Shown here piece by piece: positions 28,699-37,140 of a stretch of 64,000 nucleotides of DNA. A model generated the notes under the pieces. It was given only the letters and a program-made list of their open reading frames with translations, had not been told where the DNA came from and ran no database searches. The stretch covers positions 1 to 64,000 of the forward strand of contig JAJYIU010000023.1 of NCBI GenBank assembly GCA_021789895.1, written 5' to 3'. How positions within the stretch are numbered: the stretch's first letter is position 1; each line of letters opens with the position of its first letter. The stretch is from Acidobacteriota bacterium. GTDB taxonomy: Bacteria > Acidobacteriota > Terriglobia > Terriglobales > SCQP01. The translations under genes and the position numbers were made by a program.

Positions 28699-30765
28699 AT
28701 GGCGGCATCCGGCCCAATTCCCGCACCGCTGCCGCGCGCCTGGTATGGCGCGAATATTGCGGATTTTTTAAATTCAGACCCCAGCAGTGTATTGGGCTGC
28801 CTGACGGAGAATAGCGATTTTAGCGTGATCGCGGAACAAAAGAATGCCTGGCGGGATGAAATTGCCATCCTGCGCGCGGCATTATGCGGCTTGAACGGCC
28901 GGCTCTATCTGGAATTTACGATCCCGCGCATGGGCCATCGCGCAGATGCGGTGCTGCTGATTGGACCGGCGTTGTTCGTGCTGGAATTCAAGCTGGGAGA
29001 AACGAAATTTCATCGCGCCAGCCGGGACCAGGTGTGGGATTACGCGCTCGATCTTAAAAATTTCCATGCCGCCAGCCATGCGCTGCCGATCGTCCCAATT
29101 CTGATTGCTACCGAAGTTCCGGATGCAGAGGTGGAGACCGGCCCAATCAGTGCCGATCCAGACCGGGTATATCGCCCGGTATCCGTGAATTCGCATTTGC
29201 TGCGGAGGCTGCTGGACGCGGCGCTGGCGGCCATTTCCGGCCCGGAGATCAACGCCGCGGAATGGGCTGCCGCCCCTTACCAGCCCACGCCGACGATTAT
29301 TGAAGCCGCTCGCGCGCTTTACGCGCACCATTCGGTTGAAAACATAACCCGTTCCGATGCCGAGGCAACGAACCTCACCGTCACCTCCGAACGCATTCTG
29401 GAAATCGTGCATTCGACCCGCCGAGACCGGCGCAAAGCCATCTGTTTCGTTACCGGCGTGCCCGGCGCAGGCAAGACGCTGGTAGGGCTGAATGTATCGA
29501 CCAGAAAATTGGAACCGCAGCTCGCGCCACAAGAGAATGGCGGCGAACATGCCGTATTTATCTCCGGCAATGGTCCGCTGGTTGCCGTTTTAACTGAAGC
29601 CCTGACGCGCGACGAATTCAGCCGCAGACAACAAAAACATGAATCGGTGCGCAAAGGGCATGTGCAGAATGAAGTCAAAGCCTTTATCCAGAATGTGCAT
29701 CATTTTCGGGATGAAGGCTTGCGGCATGCCGGTCCGCCCAGCGAGCATGTGGTGATTTTTGACGAAGCGCAACGCGCCTGGAATCTAAACAAGACCGCGA
29801 ATTTCATGCGGCGGAAAAAAAATATAGCCGATTTTCAGAAATCCGAGCCCGAATTTCTGATTTCCTGCATGGACCGGCATCGGGATTGGGCGACCATCGT
29901 CTGCCTGGTCGGCGGCGGGCAGGAGATCAACACCGGCGAAGCCGGCATCGGCATCTGGCTGGAAGCGATCATGGAGCATTTTCCGGATTGGAACATGCAC
30001 CTTTCGCCTCACCTGAATCAATATGGCTCCTTTATTTCCGAGCATGCGTCCGGCATCGCTACCCAGAAAAGCAGCCAGGCACTATGGGAAAAAATTCGTG
30101 CCTATGCCCATGCCCGGTTCGATCCGGACCTTCATCTCGGGGTCTCCTTGCGTTCTTTTCGCGCCGAAAAATTATCGGCATTCGTGGACGCCTTGCTGGA
30201 TTTAAACCGGCATGCGGCCGGCGGCGCCTGGAATGCGATTGCGCCGCGTTATCCCATTTGCATAACCCGAAATTTGGCTTCCGCCAAAGCATGGCTACGC
30301 CAAAAGGCCCGGGGAAATGACCGGTTTGGCATGCTCGCTTCTTCCAAGGCGGAGCGGCTGAAGCCGTTTGCCATTGATATACGAGTGGACGTCAACCCGG
30401 TGCAATGGTTTCTGAATCAGCGCGACCATATTCGTTCCAGCTATTACCTCGAAGACGTGGCAACCGAATTCGATATTCAGGGCCTGGAATTGGATTGGGC
30501 GTGCGTCACTTGGGATGGCGATCTGCGTTGCCAGGGCGATCATTGGAGCCATCATGATTTCCGCGGCAAGCAATGGACTCAAGTAAAGATAGTGGAGAAT
30601 CAGAAATATTTATTGAATGCGTATCGCGTCCTGCTGACCCGCGCCCGCCAGGGAATGGTCATATTTGTGCCGGCCGGCAATGAGGACGATCCCACGCGTA
30701 CGCCGGCTTTTTACGATTCCACCTTTACCTATCTCCGCTCAATCGGTTTGCCGGTATTGAATTGA
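28699..30765 (+). CDS. DUF2075 ATPase/helicase-like protein with nuclease-like N-terminus
   Basis: A 688-aa protein. The C-terminal two-thirds is a DUF2075 (SF1-like) P-loop ATPase with Walker A GVPGAGKTLVGL, Walker B VVIFDEAQRAW and a final helicase-type motif LLTRARQGMVIFVP. The N-terminus (~85-150) contains DAVLLIG followed by FVLEFKLGETKFHR and QVWDYALDLKNFH, a D...ExK pattern of the PD-(D/E)XK nuclease kind. It probably handles nucleic acid; many relatives are found in defence or mobile contexts. Base composition looks more AT-rich than its neighbours, suggesting transfer. It stands alone, convergent to the RiPP operon. The start at 28699 is the first good ATG. Confidence 0.82.
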   Translation: MAASGPIPAPLPRAWYGANIADFLNSDPSSVLGCLTENSDFSVIAEQKNAWRDEIAILRAALCGLNGRLYLEFTIPRMGHRADAVLLIGPALFVLEFKLGETKFHRASRDQVWDYALDLKNFHAASHALPIVPILIATEVPDAEVETGPISADPDRVYRPVSVNSHLLRRLLDAALAAISGPEINAAEWAAAPYQPTPTIIEAARALYAHHSVENITRSDAEATNLTVTSERILEIVHSTRRDRRKAICFVTGVPGAGKTLVGLNVSTRKLEPQLAPQENGGEHAVFISGNGPLVAVLTEALTRDEFSRRQQKHESVRKGHVQNEVKAFIQNVHHFRDEGLRHAGPPSEHVVIFDEAQRAWNLNKTANFMRRKKNIADFQKSEPEFLISCMDRHRDWATIVCLVGGGQEINTGEAGIGIWLEAIMEHFPDWNMHLSPHLNQYGSFISEHASGIATQKSSQALWEKIRAYAHARFDPDLHLGVSLRSFRAEKLSAFVDALLDLNRHAAGGAWNAIAPRYPICITRNLASAKAWLRQKARGNDRFGMLASSKAERLKPFAIDIRVDVNPVQWFLNQRDHIRSSYYLEDVATEFDIQGLELDWACVTWDGDLRCQGDHWSHHDFRGKQWTQVKIVENQKYLLNAYRVLLTRARQGMVIFVPAGNEDDPTRTPAFYDSTFTYLRSIGLPVLN

Positions 30766-30848: not shown

Positions 30849-32039
30849 TTAGCTGCCGGGCATCCGGCCCACATCTTGGGTGGCTGCAATTTGCCGATCA
30901 TTGCCGGCGAGATGGATTTTTTGCCACAATTGCTCGCGAATCAAGGCGCGTAAAAACTCGCGCCATCGCGCGCGGGCCAACGCCAGAAAGGCCGGCTTTT
31001 CCGAGGCGGCATCCGGATGGTGCAGCAGCCAATCCAGCAGCGCTTCGGCTTCCAGTTCCTCATCGCCCTCGCCGCGATCGTCCCAACCCTGGGCAAGCAA
31101 GCCGCGTTGCTTGTGCAGGGCGCGATCACGCAGCGCGGTATAAGCTCCCGCCTGCCGCAGCCAGGCGAGCAAATGCGGCTGCGCCGGATCGCCCGCCGGG
31201 CGTGCGGCGGCCGAACGATGAGCCGCCAAGCAGAGTTGCGGCTGCAACCAGAGCTCATCCAGCACCGCTTGCACGCGGAGTTCCAGGGCCGGCTCGGCCG
31301 GCGACTCGGCCTCGGCCGTTGCCATCAAGTGCTGCCAGGCGGTGGTGCGATGAAAAACGAAATTGGGCGCGGACGGGCCAGGTGGATTGGCCAGCAGGCG
31401 TCGCGCCTGGCGCAGCACAGCGAGCGCGTCCCGCCGTTTAAGGTCGAGCTTATGGCGCGGCCACCAGGCGGCAAAACGCGTGAGTTCTTCCGCACTGGCG
31501 CCGCAAGATGCTGCCAATTCGAGGGCCGCAGGATAATCCCGCCGGGGGTAAAACAGTGATTTGGCCGCCGATGCCACGATCCGCCGGGTGCGCGGACCAA
31601 TACAGCCGGCGCGGCGGGCCCGGCGCAGCGTGGCCCGGATATTCACCATAGCCTCGGACAGAGGAAGATAACGGCCGCCGACGCGGGCATAAGCTACGGC
31701 CACCTCGTCATCGTCGCGCAGACGGCGGTCACGATAGGCGGCAAAGATCGCGCCCACGCCGATCATTCCGAAGGCACAAAGTTCGGCGGCACGCAGCGCG
31801 CCCATGCTCGCGGCGCCCAGGACCGTGCACCCCTGATCCAAAGCCCAAAGAATTTCCTTATGCCAGACCGCCGGAACCTGATCGAACTCACCGTCAATCA
31901 GGACCAACAAGCGGGCGCCGGCGCGGACGGCGCGATAGACGTCGCCCTGGGTCACCGGGGGACGATAGTCCGCCCCCGCCAGACAGCGGCATGCTTCGGA
32001 AAGCGACAGGGACGGTCCCAGGAACACGACCGGGCTCAT
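30849..32039 (-). CDS. TfuA-like protein, partner of YcaO
   Basis: A 396-aa TfuA-domain protein. The first ~150 residues carry the family core: VVFLGPSLSLSEA, GDVYRAVRAGARLLVLIDG, VWHKEILWALDQG, GAASMGALRAAEL and the acidic DDDEVAVAYA. In characterised systems TfuA proteins accompany a YcaO enzyme and are needed for backbone thioamidation (for example archaeal McrA and the thiovarsolin pathway). The C-terminal ~230 residues are helical, Arg/Ala-rich and not recognisable. Its ATG overlaps the ycaO stop (ATGA, 32036-32039), so the two are translationally coupled. It is the last gene of the proposed RiPP operon. Confidence 0.9.
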   Translation of the reverse strand: MSPVVFLGPSLSLSEACRCLAGADYRPPVTQGDVYRAVRAGARLLVLIDGEFDQVPAVWHKEILWALDQGCTVLGAASMGALRAAELCAFGMIGVGAIFAAYRDRRLRDDDEVAVAYARVGGRYLPLSEAMVNIRATLRRARRAGCIGPRTRRIVASAAKSLFYPRRDYPAALELAASCGASAEELTRFAAWWPRHKLDLKRRDALAVLRQARRLLANPPGPSAPNFVFHRTTAWQHLMATAEAESPAEPALELRVQAVLDELWLQPQLCLAAHRSAAARPAGDPAQPHLLAWLRQAGAYTALRDRALHKQRGLLAQGWDDRGEGDEELEAEALLDWLLHHPDAASEKPAFLALARARWREFLRALIREQLWQKIHLAGNDRQIAATQDVGRMPGS

Positions 32040-33385
32040 GTGGCACGCTCCTGCGCCCTGCGGGCGCGTCTGCCCGGACGATAATGGGGATCGAAGTGGC
32101 AGCCTTCCAGGCCGGGAACCACCATTTTTACTACAAATATGTCCGATCCGGGCCGGCTAAGGTTGACTGCCACGACGCGCGCCACGCCCAAATCACGCAG
32201 GCGCGCCAAGAGCCAGGCAACATCCTGGCGCAGGCTGGAAGCACGCCAATGCGGCGCAGCCCGAAAATCGCGTTCACCCGCACCCGGCCGCAGGTGGCGA
32301 AAGCGGAAGCGTTTCCAATCCGGATCGCGCAGGCGCAGGTATTCCTCGCGGAAGACGTCGTCGCGCGAGCCGGCGATGAAAGTCAGCCGGCTTTGGGCCG
32401 CTTCGGTGAGAGCGCGCGAGAAGGCCACGCCACGGTCGGGATGGCAGCCCATGCCCAGGGCGTAATAGCCGAAGTGGAGGCGATCTTCACGGCGCTCGCA
32501 GATCATGCAGCGGAAGACGGGGACGCCGGCATCGCCGGCGAGGTCCCAGGCGGTGACATCAATTCCAGCGGCCGCAAAACGCTCGAGTAGTAGACGGCCA
32601 CCAGCGTCGCCGGCGCCGGCTAGCGCGAGGCGGGTGGCGTCGCGTTCCGCATCGGGGCGCAACTGCCAGAGCGCGATGGCGTCGCGCTCGATCACTTCAC
32701 AAAGCCCCGAGCTGACCGCCTCGAGCAGGATATTGCCGGAGGCCAAGCCGTTGGAGTTGGCTTGAAAAAAGCCGCTGCTGGGAGGCCAAGGTAGCGAAGC
32801 ATCGGCGTGCACCAACTCGAAAGGAAGCCAGACCGGCTGCCGCTGCAAAAGGTCGAATCCTTCAATCCAAAAAATCGGAGTTTCCGGGGTCCACTCCCGT
32901 CCGGCGGCGAACGGCAGGTCCTCCATTTCGATCAGCGGCAACTCGCGCACTAGCGAAGCATAGCAGCCAAAGCGCCGCGGCAGGCGGATGCTTTCCGCAT
33001 GCTCCAACTCGATACTTTCCATTACCGCCGAAACGGCGGCGGCAGCCGGCTTGAGTCCTTTCCCTTGCGAGACGGAGAGGTTACGGGAATTGGGGCGAAT
33101 GGCGACCGCGACGGGAATGCCGATGCGGTCGAGGCCGGTAATATCGGCCACCCGAGTGATGCCGAATTCCGCCAGGCGCGGGGACAATTTCGCCAGGGTG
33201 ACGGTGGGCGAGCAGACGCGATGCGTGCCGGCGCGATAACGTTTCCGGCCGGGATCGTCGTCGCCGGGCAGGAGCGACGCGAGTTCCTTCAGATCCGGCG
33301 AGAGCGGTGCATCTTGCTTGAAATTCGCCCCTGGCCGGGAAAATTGAGCTTCGTTTATCATGCCCGGTGGCGGTGAGCTTGGCAT
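32036..33385 (-). CDS. YcaO-domain ATP-dependent backbone-modifying enzyme
   Basis: A 449-aa YcaO protein. The fold's nucleotide-site motifs are visible: NLSVSQGKGLKPAAAAVSA, ESIELEHAE, LASGNILLEAVSSGLCEVI and ERDAIALWQL. YcaO enzymes phosphorylate peptide-bond oxygen to install azolines, amidines or thioamides. The C-terminus lacks the PxPxP ending of azoline-forming members, and no E1-like or ocin-ThiF partner is encoded nearby, whereas TfuA is coupled downstream; thioamidation is therefore the most likely chemistry (inference). The start could be 33385 or the in-frame ATG at 33361; neither has a strong ribosome site. It follows the kinase gene by 21 bp. Confidence 0.92.
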   Translation of the reverse strand: MPSSPPPGMINEAQFSRPGANFKQDAPLSPDLKELASLLPGDDDPGRKRYRAGTHRVCSPTVTLAKLSPRLAEFGITRVADITGLDRIGIPVAVAIRPNSRNLSVSQGKGLKPAAAAVSAVMESIELEHAESIRLPRRFGCYASLVRELPLIEMEDLPFAAGREWTPETPIFWIEGFDLLQRQPVWLPFELVHADASLPWPPSSGFFQANSNGLASGNILLEAVSSGLCEVIERDAIALWQLRPDAERDATRLALAGAGDAGGRLLLERFAAAGIDVTAWDLAGDAGVPVFRCMICERREDRLHFGYYALGMGCHPDRGVAFSRALTEAAQSRLTFIAGSRDDVFREEYLRLRDPDWKRFRFRHLRPGAGERDFRAAPHWRASSLRQDVAWLLARLRDLGVARVVAVNLSRPGSDIFVVKMVVPGLEGCHFDPHYRPGRRARRAQERAT

Positions 33386-33406: not shown

Positions 33407-35665
33407 TTATGCCTGAGTCGGCGCCGCAGAGTCGTTCGCCAGCGATAAGCCATACCCCGGGCCGATGCGGGCCAAAAACGCTTGCATGCTCGGCTCGTTC
33501 AGAAAGCGGCGAAGCCGGGGCCAATGCTGGAGGGTGCATTTGACCACGAATAATTTATTATCGCGGGCCTGCCAGGCCCGCTCGAACCAAGCCAAGCCGC
33601 CCTCCAGATCTCCCAAAAACAAGCATAGAAAGGCCAGATCGAAGCTGGGCGGGCGCGGGCTGGAGCCGAGCTCGGCGAGAATGGCACGGGCATCGCTTTC
33701 CCGGCCTGCCATGGCATACCCCCAACCCAGATGGCCGCGCGTCCAATGAAATTGCTCAATCAGTCGGTTGCCCTCTTGGTAACGTTCCAAATACCAAAGC
33801 ACCAGCGCCTGCATCGCTTTGAGCGGAAGATAGCCGGGCGAAATGAGCGCGGTGCGATGAATCTGCTCGAGCGCATCCTGATGGCGATCCTGCATGAGCA
33901 AGACCCAGGCCAGATGGCCGCCGGCGATGGGTTCCAAAGGATCGATGGCGAGGGCGCGTTGGGCTTCCAGCAGCGCCTCCCCGGGGCGATCCAGGACGGC
34001 CTGCAATAACATGCTGTAGGCCAGATGGGTTTCGGCGGAGTTCGAATTTTGTGCGAGCGCGTCCTGGAAGGCACGCTCCGCCGCCGGCCAGTCCCAATCA
34101 TAGTTGAGCGCGATCATGCCTGCGGCCAGTTGCGCTTCCGGCAAGCGGGGCTCGAGTTTGAGCGCCTTGCTGAGGGCGGCGCGGGCCAATTGATAAGCTT
34201 CCGCCGGCGGCAGAAATCCATAATTGCCGGCGCGCACATAGCTGCTGGAGAGCGCGGCATAAATAGGGGCGTACGTGGGCTCGAGCTGCAAGGCCTGTTG
34301 AAAATCGCGCCACGCCCGTTGCAATCCCTGCAGCGTCATTTGTTGACCGGCCTGGCGGGCTTTGAGATATAGCCGGTAGGCTGCGGGGTCCACGCGCGCG
34401 CACGGCGCCGACTGGGGCGATTCGACTTCAGGAACGCGAAGCTGGAGCGCGCGCGCAATTTTTTGCGCCACTTCGGCCTGGATGGCGAGCACGTCGCCTA
34501 CGTCGCGGTCGTAAGCTTCGGCCCAAAGCTGGCTCTGGCTGGATAATTCGGTGAGCGCAATGCGAATGCGCAAGCGATTTCCGGTATGGGCCACGCTGCC
34601 CTCCAGCAGCGCGCCGACTCCGAGTTCGCGGCCAATTTCAGCCAACGATTTTGGGCTGTTTTTATAACGCATGGCCGAGCGGGAAGAGATGACGCGCAAG
34701 CCGCGGACTTGGGCCAAGCGAAGCGCAATTTCCTCGGTCATGCCATCGCTGAAATATTCTTCCGCCTCGCCACCGCCGCGATTGACGAGCGGCAGCACCG
34801 CCAACGAAGCCGGCGCCACGGCAGTGGCGGAAGGGGTAGCCCGGGGATGAAGGTCCCGGCCGCGCAAGGCGTCAGCCAATTCGCGCGCGCTAGAAAAACG
34901 ATCAGCGGACTTCTTGGCCAGCAGCCGGTCCAGAATCGGCGCCAGCGCAGGGAAAGGCAGCGGCGGCGGCGTTTCATTCAAAATGCGCAGCGCGGCGCTC
35001 ATGCCGGCCGGCCCGGCGGGATCTAGGAATGGATGGCGGCCAGACAGCATCTGATAAAACACGATGCCCAGGGCAAATAAATCACTGCGGGCATCCAGCG
35101 GTTGCGCCTGCAATTGCTCGGGCGACATATAAGCGAGCGTGCCAATCAGCCAGCCCGGCTGGGTCAGCGCGGTCGCCATCGTTTCCGCCTCCAACACCGC
35201 CAACCGCTTGGCCAGGCCGAAATCGACCACTTTGACGTGCAGGTCGGGGGTCAACATAATGTTGGACGGCTTCAAATCGCGATGCAGAATGCCGCGCGCA
35301 TGCGCCGCAGCCAGCGCGTCGGCGATCTCGAGGGCCAGCTTGACCGCCTGCTCCACCGGCAAGGGCCCCTGGCGCAGGCGTTGGTCCAGGCTTTCGCCCT
35401 GGATATATTCCATCGCGATGTAAGCTACGCCTTCGGCTTCGCCGGCCTCGTAAATTTTGCAAATGAACGGATGGTCAATCGTCGCCGCCGCGCGAGCTTC
35501 CTCGAAGAAACGGCGGCGCGCAGCCTCGCCCGGCAGCTCGGAAGGAGCGAGAAACTTGAGCGCAATATTTCGACCCAGGCGCGGGTCTTCAGCCAGGTAG
35601 ATCTCGCCCATGCCGCCCAGGCCCAGTTTGCGGCCCACCAGATAATGCGAAAATTTCCGCTGCAT
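33407..35665 (-). CDS. Serine/threonine protein kinase with TolB-like and TPR domains
   Basis: A 752-aa soluble protein. Residues ~8-270 are a Hanks-type kinase: GLGGMGEIYLA, the ATP Lys in IALKFL, catalytic loop HRDLKPSN, DFG in VVDFGLA, and GTLAYMSPEQ. Residues ~285-420 resemble the TolB/FlgO-like region found between kinase and TPR parts in this protein class (LAVLPLVNRGGG; YFSDGMTEEIALRLAQ). The rest is a TPR array (LEPTYAPIYAALSSSYV; LAIDPLEPIAGGHLAWVLL). No membrane helix is seen. It sits between the Nif11-like peptide gene (91-bp gap) and ycaO (21-bp gap) on the same strand, so it may control or be co-expressed with peptide production. Confidence 0.92.
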   Translation of the reverse strand: MQRKFSHYLVGRKLGLGGMGEIYLAEDPRLGRNIALKFLAPSELPGEAARRRFFEEARAAATIDHPFICKIYEAGEAEGVAYIAMEYIQGESLDQRLRQGPLPVEQAVKLALEIADALAAAHARGILHRDLKPSNIMLTPDLHVKVVDFGLAKRLAVLEAETMATALTQPGWLIGTLAYMSPEQLQAQPLDARSDLFALGIVFYQMLSGRHPFLDPAGPAGMSAALRILNETPPPLPFPALAPILDRLLAKKSADRFSSARELADALRGRDLHPRATPSATAVAPASLAVLPLVNRGGGEAEEYFSDGMTEEIALRLAQVRGLRVISSRSAMRYKNSPKSLAEIGRELGVGALLEGSVAHTGNRLRIRIALTELSSQSQLWAEAYDRDVGDVLAIQAEVAQKIARALQLRVPEVESPQSAPCARVDPAAYRLYLKARQAGQQMTLQGLQRAWRDFQQALQLEPTYAPIYAALSSSYVRAGNYGFLPPAEAYQLARAALSKALKLEPRLPEAQLAAGMIALNYDWDWPAAERAFQDALAQNSNSAETHLAYSMLLQAVLDRPGEALLEAQRALAIDPLEPIAGGHLAWVLLMQDRHQDALEQIHRTALISPGYLPLKAMQALVLWYLERYQEGNRLIEQFHWTRGHLGWGYAMAGRESDARAILAELGSSPRPPSFDLAFLCLFLGDLEGGLAWFERAWQARDNKLFVVKCTLQHWPRLRRFLNEPSMQAFLARIGPGYGLSLANDSAAPTQA

Positions 35666-35756
35666 GGCGCGCGCCGCAACCCTCCGGCTGCGTCAAGGCA
35701 TGGAACCCCGCGATTCCATGCGGCCTCTTCTAACACCCTTGCGGCCAGGGTAAGCT

Positions 35757-35993
35757 TTATTTAGCCACCCACACGATGCAATTCGCCTCCTGATCCGTAG
35801 CGACGGGAGAGACGGCGTTGAACTTCGCCCGCAAGGCGTTGAAGAGATCGGCCTTGGTGAAGCTGTAACCATGTTTTTGCCCGCTGGCGAGCATGACTTG
35901 AAAAAACTGGTTGCCATTCGCCAGCACTTCCGAGCGCAGCTCCAGATTACTTTGCATTTGCTCCAGAAACGCTTTTGCATCGTCCAAAGCCAT
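35757..35993 (-). CDS. Nif11-like leader peptide, candidate RiPP precursor
   Basis: A 78-aa peptide. Residues 1-~57 match the Nif11-type leader pattern: MALDDAKAFLEQMQSN opens like the family, and HGYSFTKADLFNALRAK (41-57) corresponds to its conserved GF/Y-x-F-(S/T)-x-x-(D/E)-L-x-x-A-L ending. The remaining ~20 residues would be the core, ending ANCIVWVAK (70-78), short, hydrophobic and with one Cys. There is no Gly-Gly cleavage site. An excellent ribosome site, GGAGG, lies 8 bases before the ATG at 35993. It lies 80 bp after the N-methyltransferase gene and 91 bp before the kinase gene, all on one strand. It could be a substrate for YcaO-TfuA, the methyltransferase, or both. Confidence 0.82.
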   Translation of the reverse strand: MALDDAKAFLEQMQSNLELRSEVLANGNQFFQVMLASGQKHGYSFTKADLFNALRAKFNAVSPVATDQEANCIVWVAK

Positions 35994-36073
35994 ATTGAAT
36001 TCCTCCGGGCAAGAAGTCGAGCAGTCCGGTCAGCACGCTTCCACTACAATAGCAAGAAAATAGCGCGGCGGAG

Positions 36074-36862
36074 TCAAGCCTCCGGAAGGCCCAATTTTTT
36101 TGCCATTTCGCCATCGCGCGGAGGCGCGGCGGCGGGGGGAATCAACAACGTCGTGAGGCGGGTGATTTTGGCCGCCGGCAACCGATGGAGCGGCATGGGT
36201 TGGATGCTGGGCGGACAGGCCGGAAAATTGGCGGCCTCGTAACAGATGACTTGGTGGCCGGCGGGATAATAGCGCAGCAACTCCGCCGCCAGCAATTGCA
36301 ATCCGGCCCGGTTCGGCCCGGCCAATTCATATTGATATTGGCCGACAATACCGATTTGCCACAGGATGAGCGCGCACAGCGGATCAGGCCGGCGATGCTG
36401 GAGCAGGAACAGGGTGGCTTCGAAGCACTGATAGCCGGCCGTGGACAGATCGAAATCCAAAGCGGCGCCCAGATCGGCAAACAGGCAATCTTCGGCAGAG
36501 ATACCGGGCAGCATTTCCGCTTCGCAACCGGCGGCGCGGGCGCGGCGCACCGCTTCCGGGCCGAGGTAAGAGAAGACCGCGGGATGACCATAGAGCAGGA
36601 CGCCCAACCGGCAGCCGTCGCGCAAGCGCGAGGCAATATGATCCAGCATGCGCTCGTAGGATTCCTGGCGGGAGCGGCCGGGAAGGAAAAAAGCGTCGAG
36701 CGATTCCGCGCCCGGCTGCAAGCGGCGCAGCCAGGCGGCGGTACCGGGCTCCGAGACCAGGAACAATAGTTTTTGCGCGTGCCGAATCAACCCACGGGTT
36801 TGGAGCGTGACGTGGGAAACCATCTGTATGCCCGCGCCGGCAACCCAGAGCGAGCCGTTCAT
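36074..36862 (-). CDS. Split-borosin-type peptide backbone N-methyltransferase
   Basis: A 262-aa SAM-dependent enzyme of the tetrapyrrole-methylase superfamily that most resembles borosin alpha-N-methyltransferases (OphMA, SonM). Supporting segments: the opening MNGSLWVAGAGIQMVSHV, R65-x3-Y69 in SRQESYERM (equivalent to the catalytic Arg/Tyr pair of OphMA), LLYGHPAVFSYL (89-100), EMLPGISAEDCLFADLG (116-132), QCFEAT and LILWQIGIVG. It lacks a fused core peptide, so it would act in trans as in Shewanella SonM. The ATG overlaps the stop of the small gene upstream (ATGA), with AAGGAG 8 bases before it. Classical CobA or SUMT roles are unlikely: no corrin or haem genes are near. Confidence 0.88.
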   Translation of the reverse strand: MNGSLWVAGAGIQMVSHVTLQTRGLIRHAQKLLFLVSEPGTAAWLRRLQPGAESLDAFFLPGRSRQESYERMLDHIASRLRDGCRLGVLLYGHPAVFSYLGPEAVRRARAAGCEAEMLPGISAEDCLFADLGAALDFDLSTAGYQCFEATLFLLQHRRPDPLCALILWQIGIVGQYQYELAGPNRAGLQLLAAELLRYYPAGHQVICYEAANFPACPPSIQPMPLHRLPAAKITRLTTLLIPPAAAPPRDGEMAKKLGLPEA

Positions 36863-37140
36863 GACTGGGGCTCCTTCGCCGGGGGGGCGGAGGGTTGCGT
36901 TTCGCCGGCGGCCTCCGCCGCTTCCAACAATCCCCTCCAGGCCAGCAGCAACAGATCGTGTTCCGGCGGCAACGCCAGCAGCGTCCGCAGGCGCAAAGCG
37001 TTCGAAGTCAACAGGGCTTGCCGTTCGTCTTCATGCAAGCCGCGTCCGGCCAGCAACGATTCCGGCTGGGCGCGAAATGCCCGCGCTTGGAGCGGATCTT
37101 CCGCCAACTCGATCAGAAAATCCAGCAAGGCTTCTGACAT
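36859..37140 (-). CDS. SonA-like borosin-binding-domain peptide, candidate precursor
   Basis: A 93-aa peptide. Residues 1-~55 (MSEALLDFLIELAEDP..., then FRAQPESLLAGRGLHEDERQALL) follow the LigA-like helical pattern of the borosin-binding domain: a D-P-x-x-x-x-x-F-x-x-x-P-x-x-x-L-x-x-x-G-L-x-x-x-E-x-x-A-L spacing, as in SonA of Shewanella. The part after the domain, PPEHDLLLLAWRGLLEAAE (58-76), is the probable core region, followed by a Pro/Ala tail. It directly precedes, and overlaps by 4 bp, the N-methyltransferase gene. I chose the ATG at 37140 because it starts exactly at the domain; TTG/GTG starts up to 37230 would add a basic extension. Its own ribosome site is weak. Confidence 0.8.
   Translation of the reverse strand: MSEALLDFLIELAEDPLQARAFRAQPESLLAGRGLHEDERQALLTSNALRLRTLLALPPEHDLLLLAWRGLLEAAEAAGETQPSAPPAKEPQS

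Follow-up and report, generated by a model that had tools for sequence, protein, structure and literature searches.

Nif11 precursors have already been published for TfuA clusters (PMC8120280). The N11P peptides, for which TIGR03798 is the stricter NCBI leader model with the Gly-Gly region included, possess a Nif11 domain in their first 50 residues, a YcaO gene nearby and a family-marking cleavage region of the form ELSDEELEAVAGG (PMC2887384). Stand-alone Nif11 proteins without known function also exist, and the NHLP-Burk clusters contain a large Ser/Thr kinase (PMC2887384). The type IV split borosins, exemplified by SonM and SonA, consist of a methyltransferase and a separate precursor with an N-terminal borosin-binding domain (PMC8429565).

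In this work, we examined the window, i.e., the whole 64,000-nucleotide stretch of an Acidobacteriota contig presented above, in which elements of these systems occur side by side. The peptide encoded at its centre of interest is most likely a variant of the known YcaO-TfuA RiPP systems, namely a Nif11 precursor devoid of GG, the gene of which seemingly lies in one operon with those of a split borosin pair.

Organization of the operon

The features of the operon are collected in Table 1. On the minus strand the genes follow one another in the order SonA-like protein, methyltransferase, Nif11 peptide, kinase, YcaO and TfuA. Overlaps of 4 nt connect the SonA-like gene to the methyltransferase gene and the YcaO stop to the TfuA start, and the remaining genes are separated by 80 nt (methyltransferase to peptide), 91 nt (peptide to kinase) and 21 nt (kinase to YcaO). 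The peptide, kinase, YcaO and TfuA genes are consecutive and co-directional. A previous sequence-only reading of the window had positioned the peptide between the N-methyltransferase and YcaO genes; this is correct on the methyltransferase side, but on the YcaO side the kinase gene intervenes.

In energy, the hairpin of the peptide/kinase spacer does not exceed what chance would give (z -1.2), and the promoter and terminator signals searched in the operon occur in numbers close to the shuffle level. No protease or exporter gene is located within the operon. The next gene past TfuA (window 28699-30765) has the opposite orientation and codes for a Schlafen group 3 helicase-domain protein.

Table 1. 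Features of the operon in the window, listed in the direction of transcription
Feature	Position	Strand	Characteristics and evidence
SonA-like borosin precursor	36859..37140	(-)	93 aa; borosin-binding domain and LLLLAW-type tail; PDB, profile, fold
Borosin-type peptide alpha-N-methyltransferase (SonM/OphMA relative)	36074..36862	(-)	PF00590, family profile, alignment
Ribosome-binding site GGAGGA	35994..36010	(-)	upstream of peptide ATG; sequence, duplex energy
Nif11-leader precursor peptide	35757..35993	(-)	78 aa, ATG start; PF07862, helix model, ribosome site
Intergenic spacer, peptide/kinase, with 10-bp hairpin	35666..35756	(-)	fold -40.9 kcal/mol, z -1.2 (not beyond chance)
Ser/Thr protein kinase, C-terminal TPR repeats	33407..35665	(-)	PF00069 1.1e-44 and TPR
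YcaO protein, TfuA-associated thioamidation type	32036..33385	(-)	PF02624 2.2e-75; TIGR03266 3.3e-66 (below curated cut-off); PDB
TfuA-like protein	30849..32039	(-)	PF07812 1.1e-44; NF033432 1.9e-62 (below curated cut-off)

The Nif11 peptide

The full translation of the peptide gene is MALDDAKAFLEQMQSNLELRSEVLANGNQFFQVMLASGQKHGYSFTKADLFNALRAKFNAVSPVATDQEANCIVWVAK. Its C-terminal end reads ...ATDQEANCIVWVAK, with the hydrophobic tail ANCIVWVAK, and its single Cys is residue 72. Residues 1-50 match the entire PF07862 (Nif11) profile (positions 1-48 of 48, E 3e-9) with 37.5 bits, compared to a Pfam gathering cut-off of 23.8 bits, and the leader of Nif11 pattern that had been proposed from the sequence is thus borne out. 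Since a scan of the whole genome yielded no second match above this cut-off, a chance match is unlikely. The open reading frame is a genuine Nif11-domain peptide gene.

With TIGR03798, the peptide scores 26.5 bits, below the cut-off of 32.3, because the Gly-Gly region is absent from it; only model positions 1-51 of 68 are aligned, and the match stops ahead of the cleavage motif. Of 13 further Nif11 peptides from the phylum, 11 carry a GG ahead of the core, unlike the window peptide. The peptide therefore shares with the N11P family the location of the Nif11 domain and the proximity of a YcaO gene, but not the cleavage region that marks the family.

In a single-sequence structure model, helices extend over residues 3-13, 16-40 and 47-61, with fair confidence up to residue 61 and low confidence in the tail from there on. 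A fold search with this model gave no meaningful match, and SonA was not among the results.

The ribosome site preceding the ATG (GGAGGAATTCAATATG) has a duplex energy of -9.5 kcal/mol, the best in the operon among well-spaced sites. The earlier claim that it is the strongest of the operon holds within this limit, as the kinase site reaches -10.0, yet with its GGAGG about 15 nt upstream. The G+C content of the peptide gene is 0.53, versus 0.63-0.66 for its neighbours.

YcaO and TfuA as probable partners of the peptide

The best PDB match of the YcaO protein is the archaeal MJ1094 (2.4e-35), well ahead of cyclodehydratases; judged from its sequence, the protein resembles the archaeal McrA-thioamidation type most, rather than the cyclodehydratases. 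As in loci for thioamidated RiPPs of the YcaO-TfuA class, the ycaO and tfuA genes are adjacent, and a precursor gene, that of the Nif11 peptide, is found in the same operon, co-directional and one gene away.

We consider it reasonably probable (roughly 0.6), from sequence comparison, that the Nif11 peptide is a RiPP-type precursor, the tail of which is modified by the YcaO-TfuA pair and not by the borosin methyltransferase. The Nif11 leader, helical in the model, would comprise about residues 1-61; the 15-17 residues at the C-terminus (about 62-78, the PVATDQEANCIVWVAK region, with the end NCIVWVAK) would be the part destined for modification. The YcaO-TfuA pair encoded downstream would act on this tail, most likely by replacing the oxygen of one or more backbone amides with sulfur to give thioamides; alternatively, cyclisation at Cys72 may take place. 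Of the sequence-only reading, the resemblance to a RiPP precursor that combines a Nif11 leader with a short hydrophobic tail, its gene sharing an operon with N-methyltransferase and YcaO genes, is supported.

Nif11 peptides upstream of YcaO and TfuA genes also occur on Rhizobium and Sinorhizobium plasmids, where their tails read TIMAAALVK. Sinorhizobium medicae (L220) has several such copies with this tail, and Rhizobium johnstonii (L225) has one Nif11 peptide. The submitters annotated the latter as a precursor with a Nif11-like leader, and genes for YcaO, TfuA, a ThiS-like protein and MoeB come after it. The TIMAAAL stretch is, we presume, reminiscent of thioviridamide-type cores. Hydrophobic tails are thus also a property of Nif11 peptides beside YcaO-TfuA, which speaks against taking the Val/Ile/Trp run of the window peptide for a borosin core. 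Like the rhizobial systems and those of PMC8120280, the window combines a Nif11 leader, a short hydrophobic tail, YcaO and TfuA. It differs from them in that (i) the peptide contains neither a Gly-Gly nor an SVSSG-like site before the tail, (ii) a kinase replaces the ThiS/MoeB sulfur-carrier genes, and (iii) the operon additionally includes the split borosin pair.

A query with the Nif11 peptide (E <= 1e-3) against 396 genomes of the phylum and the plasmid set found no relative. The single sequence relative known to us from this analysis (27% identity, tail STCFVPFSEAPGR) comes from another Acidobacterium (L185). On a 3.3-kb contig, its gene follows or precedes, on one side, that of a TPR protein and, on the other, precedes that of a TOMM leader-binding protein (TIGR03882, 3.7e-25), a cyclodehydratase component.

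In some of the YcaO-TfuA loci, the product of the gene directly upstream ends in a Cys followed by two hydrophobic residues. In an Acidobacterium of the same order as the host (G024), a kinase, a peptide ending in SGCVIAVIGPSC (tail GCVIAV), YcaO and TfuA are encoded in sequence. The tails TCYVLN and TCYLLD of Polyangium and Corallococcus belong to genes that follow a kinase or kinase/cyclase protein, and TCWLVN is found in Sinorhizobium. The window peptide has NCIVWV, and its TOMM-linked relative TCFVPF. About four unrelated scaffolds with a link to YcaO-TfuA share a tail of the [TGNS]C-hydrophobic-[VIL] type; the N-terminal parts show no significant mutual similarity, except for the window and L185, Polyangium and Corallococcus, and the two Sinorhizobium proteins. 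As a background, [TGNS]C[YWFIVL][VIL] occurs in the last 28 residues of 6 among 845 ORFs. The pattern was spotted post hoc and is absent from most of the YcaO-TfuA loci examined, and we regard it as a lead, not proof. A different stretch, resembling GADGxLYxLT, is common to proteins upstream of other YcaO-TfuA pairs (L169, L172, L175, L177 and L219).

The kinase

Eight kinases were found in the genome, that of the operon included, and its placement in the operon is therefore not mere background. Its role is probably to regulate or activate the pathway, which is also suspected of the kinases in other kinase-linked YcaO clusters. The kinase-accompanied TOMM clusters (TIGR03903; NHLP-Burk) likewise unite a kinase, a peptide and a YcaO in a single operon, but the kinase of the window has TPR repeats and falls far short of the TIGR03903 cut-off. 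No lanthionine synthetase was detected among the scanned operon proteins; the kinase matches LanL models through its kinase domain alone, and the peptide does not class as a lanthipeptide precursor.

A possible small helical protein without modification

The peptide might instead be a small helical Nif11 protein of structural or regulatory function, or the product of a decaying gene, with an unmodified tail. We hold this to be unlikely. The missing Gly-Gly site, the divergent G+C content and the precedent of stand-alone Nif11 proteins are in its favour, as is the failure to find a conserved homologue; since no close homologue appeared in the sets searched, the proposed core is not backed by conservation. 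In addition, the 95.5% complete genome gave no match to the C39 peptidase (PF03412), the domain of the transporter by which N11P precursors are cut and exported, and with neither protease nor exporter encoded in the operon, the release of a core lacks a candidate enzyme. Against a non-precursor stand the strong ribosome site and the location between modification enzymes, together with the relative in a TOMM cluster and the Nif11/YcaO-TfuA pairs of the rhizobial plasmids.

The split borosin pair

A PDB search with a profile built from 11 relatives of the methyltransferase retrieved SonM (1.6e-84) and OphMA (about 1e-81). In the alignment, R65 and Y69 are the equivalents of SonM R67 and Y71, and F59 occupies the position of SonM Y58; the Y58F exchange in SonM lowers the catalytic efficiency about tenfold (PMC8429565). 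Within the sampled order, the enzyme had distant matches only. The PDB matches of the SonA-like protein were exclusively to SonA (best E 0.005), which was also the top match, although weak, of its predicted fold. With a borosin-binding-domain profile made without it, the SonA-like protein scored 43.3 bits, versus -0.7 bits for the Nif11 peptide. The pair at 36074-37140, a SonM-like methyltransferase with a separate SonA-like precursor, fits the type IV split borosins, whereas the Nif11 peptide is outside the pair and has no N-terminal borosin-binding domain. The SonA-like protein, encoded just upstream, is likely the methyltransferase's own substrate, which the enzyme would modify.

Related loci show several further arrangements. 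In three of them (L033 3224-4183, L034 6264-7271 and L037 400-1401) the borosin-binding domain is fused N-terminally to the methyltransferase, and a second methyltransferase gene comes after it. Another borosin-type precursor (L032 14674-15102) consists in its C-terminal half of a long array of AIKAKTA repeats. Distant methyltransferase relatives (L005 1-2274 and L004 865-2277) are found beside peptides with Asn/Trp/Gly/Arg repeats (GNWRNY-type), in L005 also with a protein resembling a radical SAM enzyme. Of 79 related methyltransferase loci of various phyla (L049-L127), 38 have a Ser/Thr kinase within 10 kb, and in 27 the distance is no more than 2.5 kb; in the open-licence papers searched, we found no report of an association between split borosins and kinases.

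Cooperation of the two modules is also improbable in our estimation, whether the peptide would be both thioamidated and N-methylated or the SonA-like protein would be modified by both enzymes. Equally doubtful is the broader proposal of a hybrid RiPP made by one operon, with cooperating YcaO-TfuA and borosin modules, a GG-less Nif11 and a SonA-like precursor, and dedicated kinase control. Both modules do reside in one apparent operon, and the search of close relatives turned up no copy of the YcaO or of the methyltransferase: the YcaO is absent from the 13 further genomes of the host family and, as a single query against genome contigs, yielded no relative. In the cyanobacteria Dendronalium (L079 877-1731) and Symploca (L071 3231-5537), YcaO genes are separated from borosin methyltransferase genes by 365 bp and 4.4 kb, respectively, and these loci are a second hint that YcaO and borosin genes co-locate. 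However, each module has its own precursor, there is no sign of one leader recognised by both enzymes, and among the 79 loci YcaO occurs within 10 kb of the methyltransferase in two and TfuA in none. No borosin/YcaO-TfuA hybrid was seen in the sampled genomes or in the open-licence literature, outside which the main split-borosin surveys perhaps fall.

Very improbable is the borosin-like core of the sequence-only reading, in which the methyltransferase would N-methylate the VWV tail of the adjacent Nif11 peptide: the genes are neighbours in one operon, the tail is hydrophobic and the enzyme is a true borosin methyltransferase, but its gene overlaps that of the SonA-like precursor, such precursors lie at most 3.1 kb away in 67 of the 79 loci (many phyla) and convincing Nif11 peptides in none, no Nif11 match is near the methyltransferase gene in 50 genomes with a related enzyme, and the peptide, which fails with the borosin-binding-domain profile, matches the whole of the Nif11 profile. 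The Nif11 matches in the 79 loci were weak (best E 0.012), and several were the borosin precursors themselves. The borosin-binding-domain and Nif11 models cross-match in their first two helices, a point in favour of a borosin; an Acidobacteriota borosin precursor (L036 8592-8861) passes the Pfam Nif11 cut-off over the first 25 domain residues, its higher score being due to the first helices that the models share. Despite this cross-match, the scores led us to reject the idea that the Nif11 peptide is a borosin-binding domain that has diverged. The YcaO-TfuA pair thus appears from these comparisons to be the best partner for the Nif11 peptide, ahead of the methyltransferase.

Conclusions

The peptide can now be assigned to a testable enzyme pair, and two RiPP systems in one operon can be told apart. 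If both modules cooperate, the product would be a hybrid with backbone thioamide and backbone N-methyl groups, undescribed in the open-licence literature searched. If the pairing with YcaO-TfuA is true, the thioamide family would gain a Nif11 precursor that lacks the usual Gly-Gly site, and the recurring Cys-hydrophobic tail would serve as a handle for finding more substrates.
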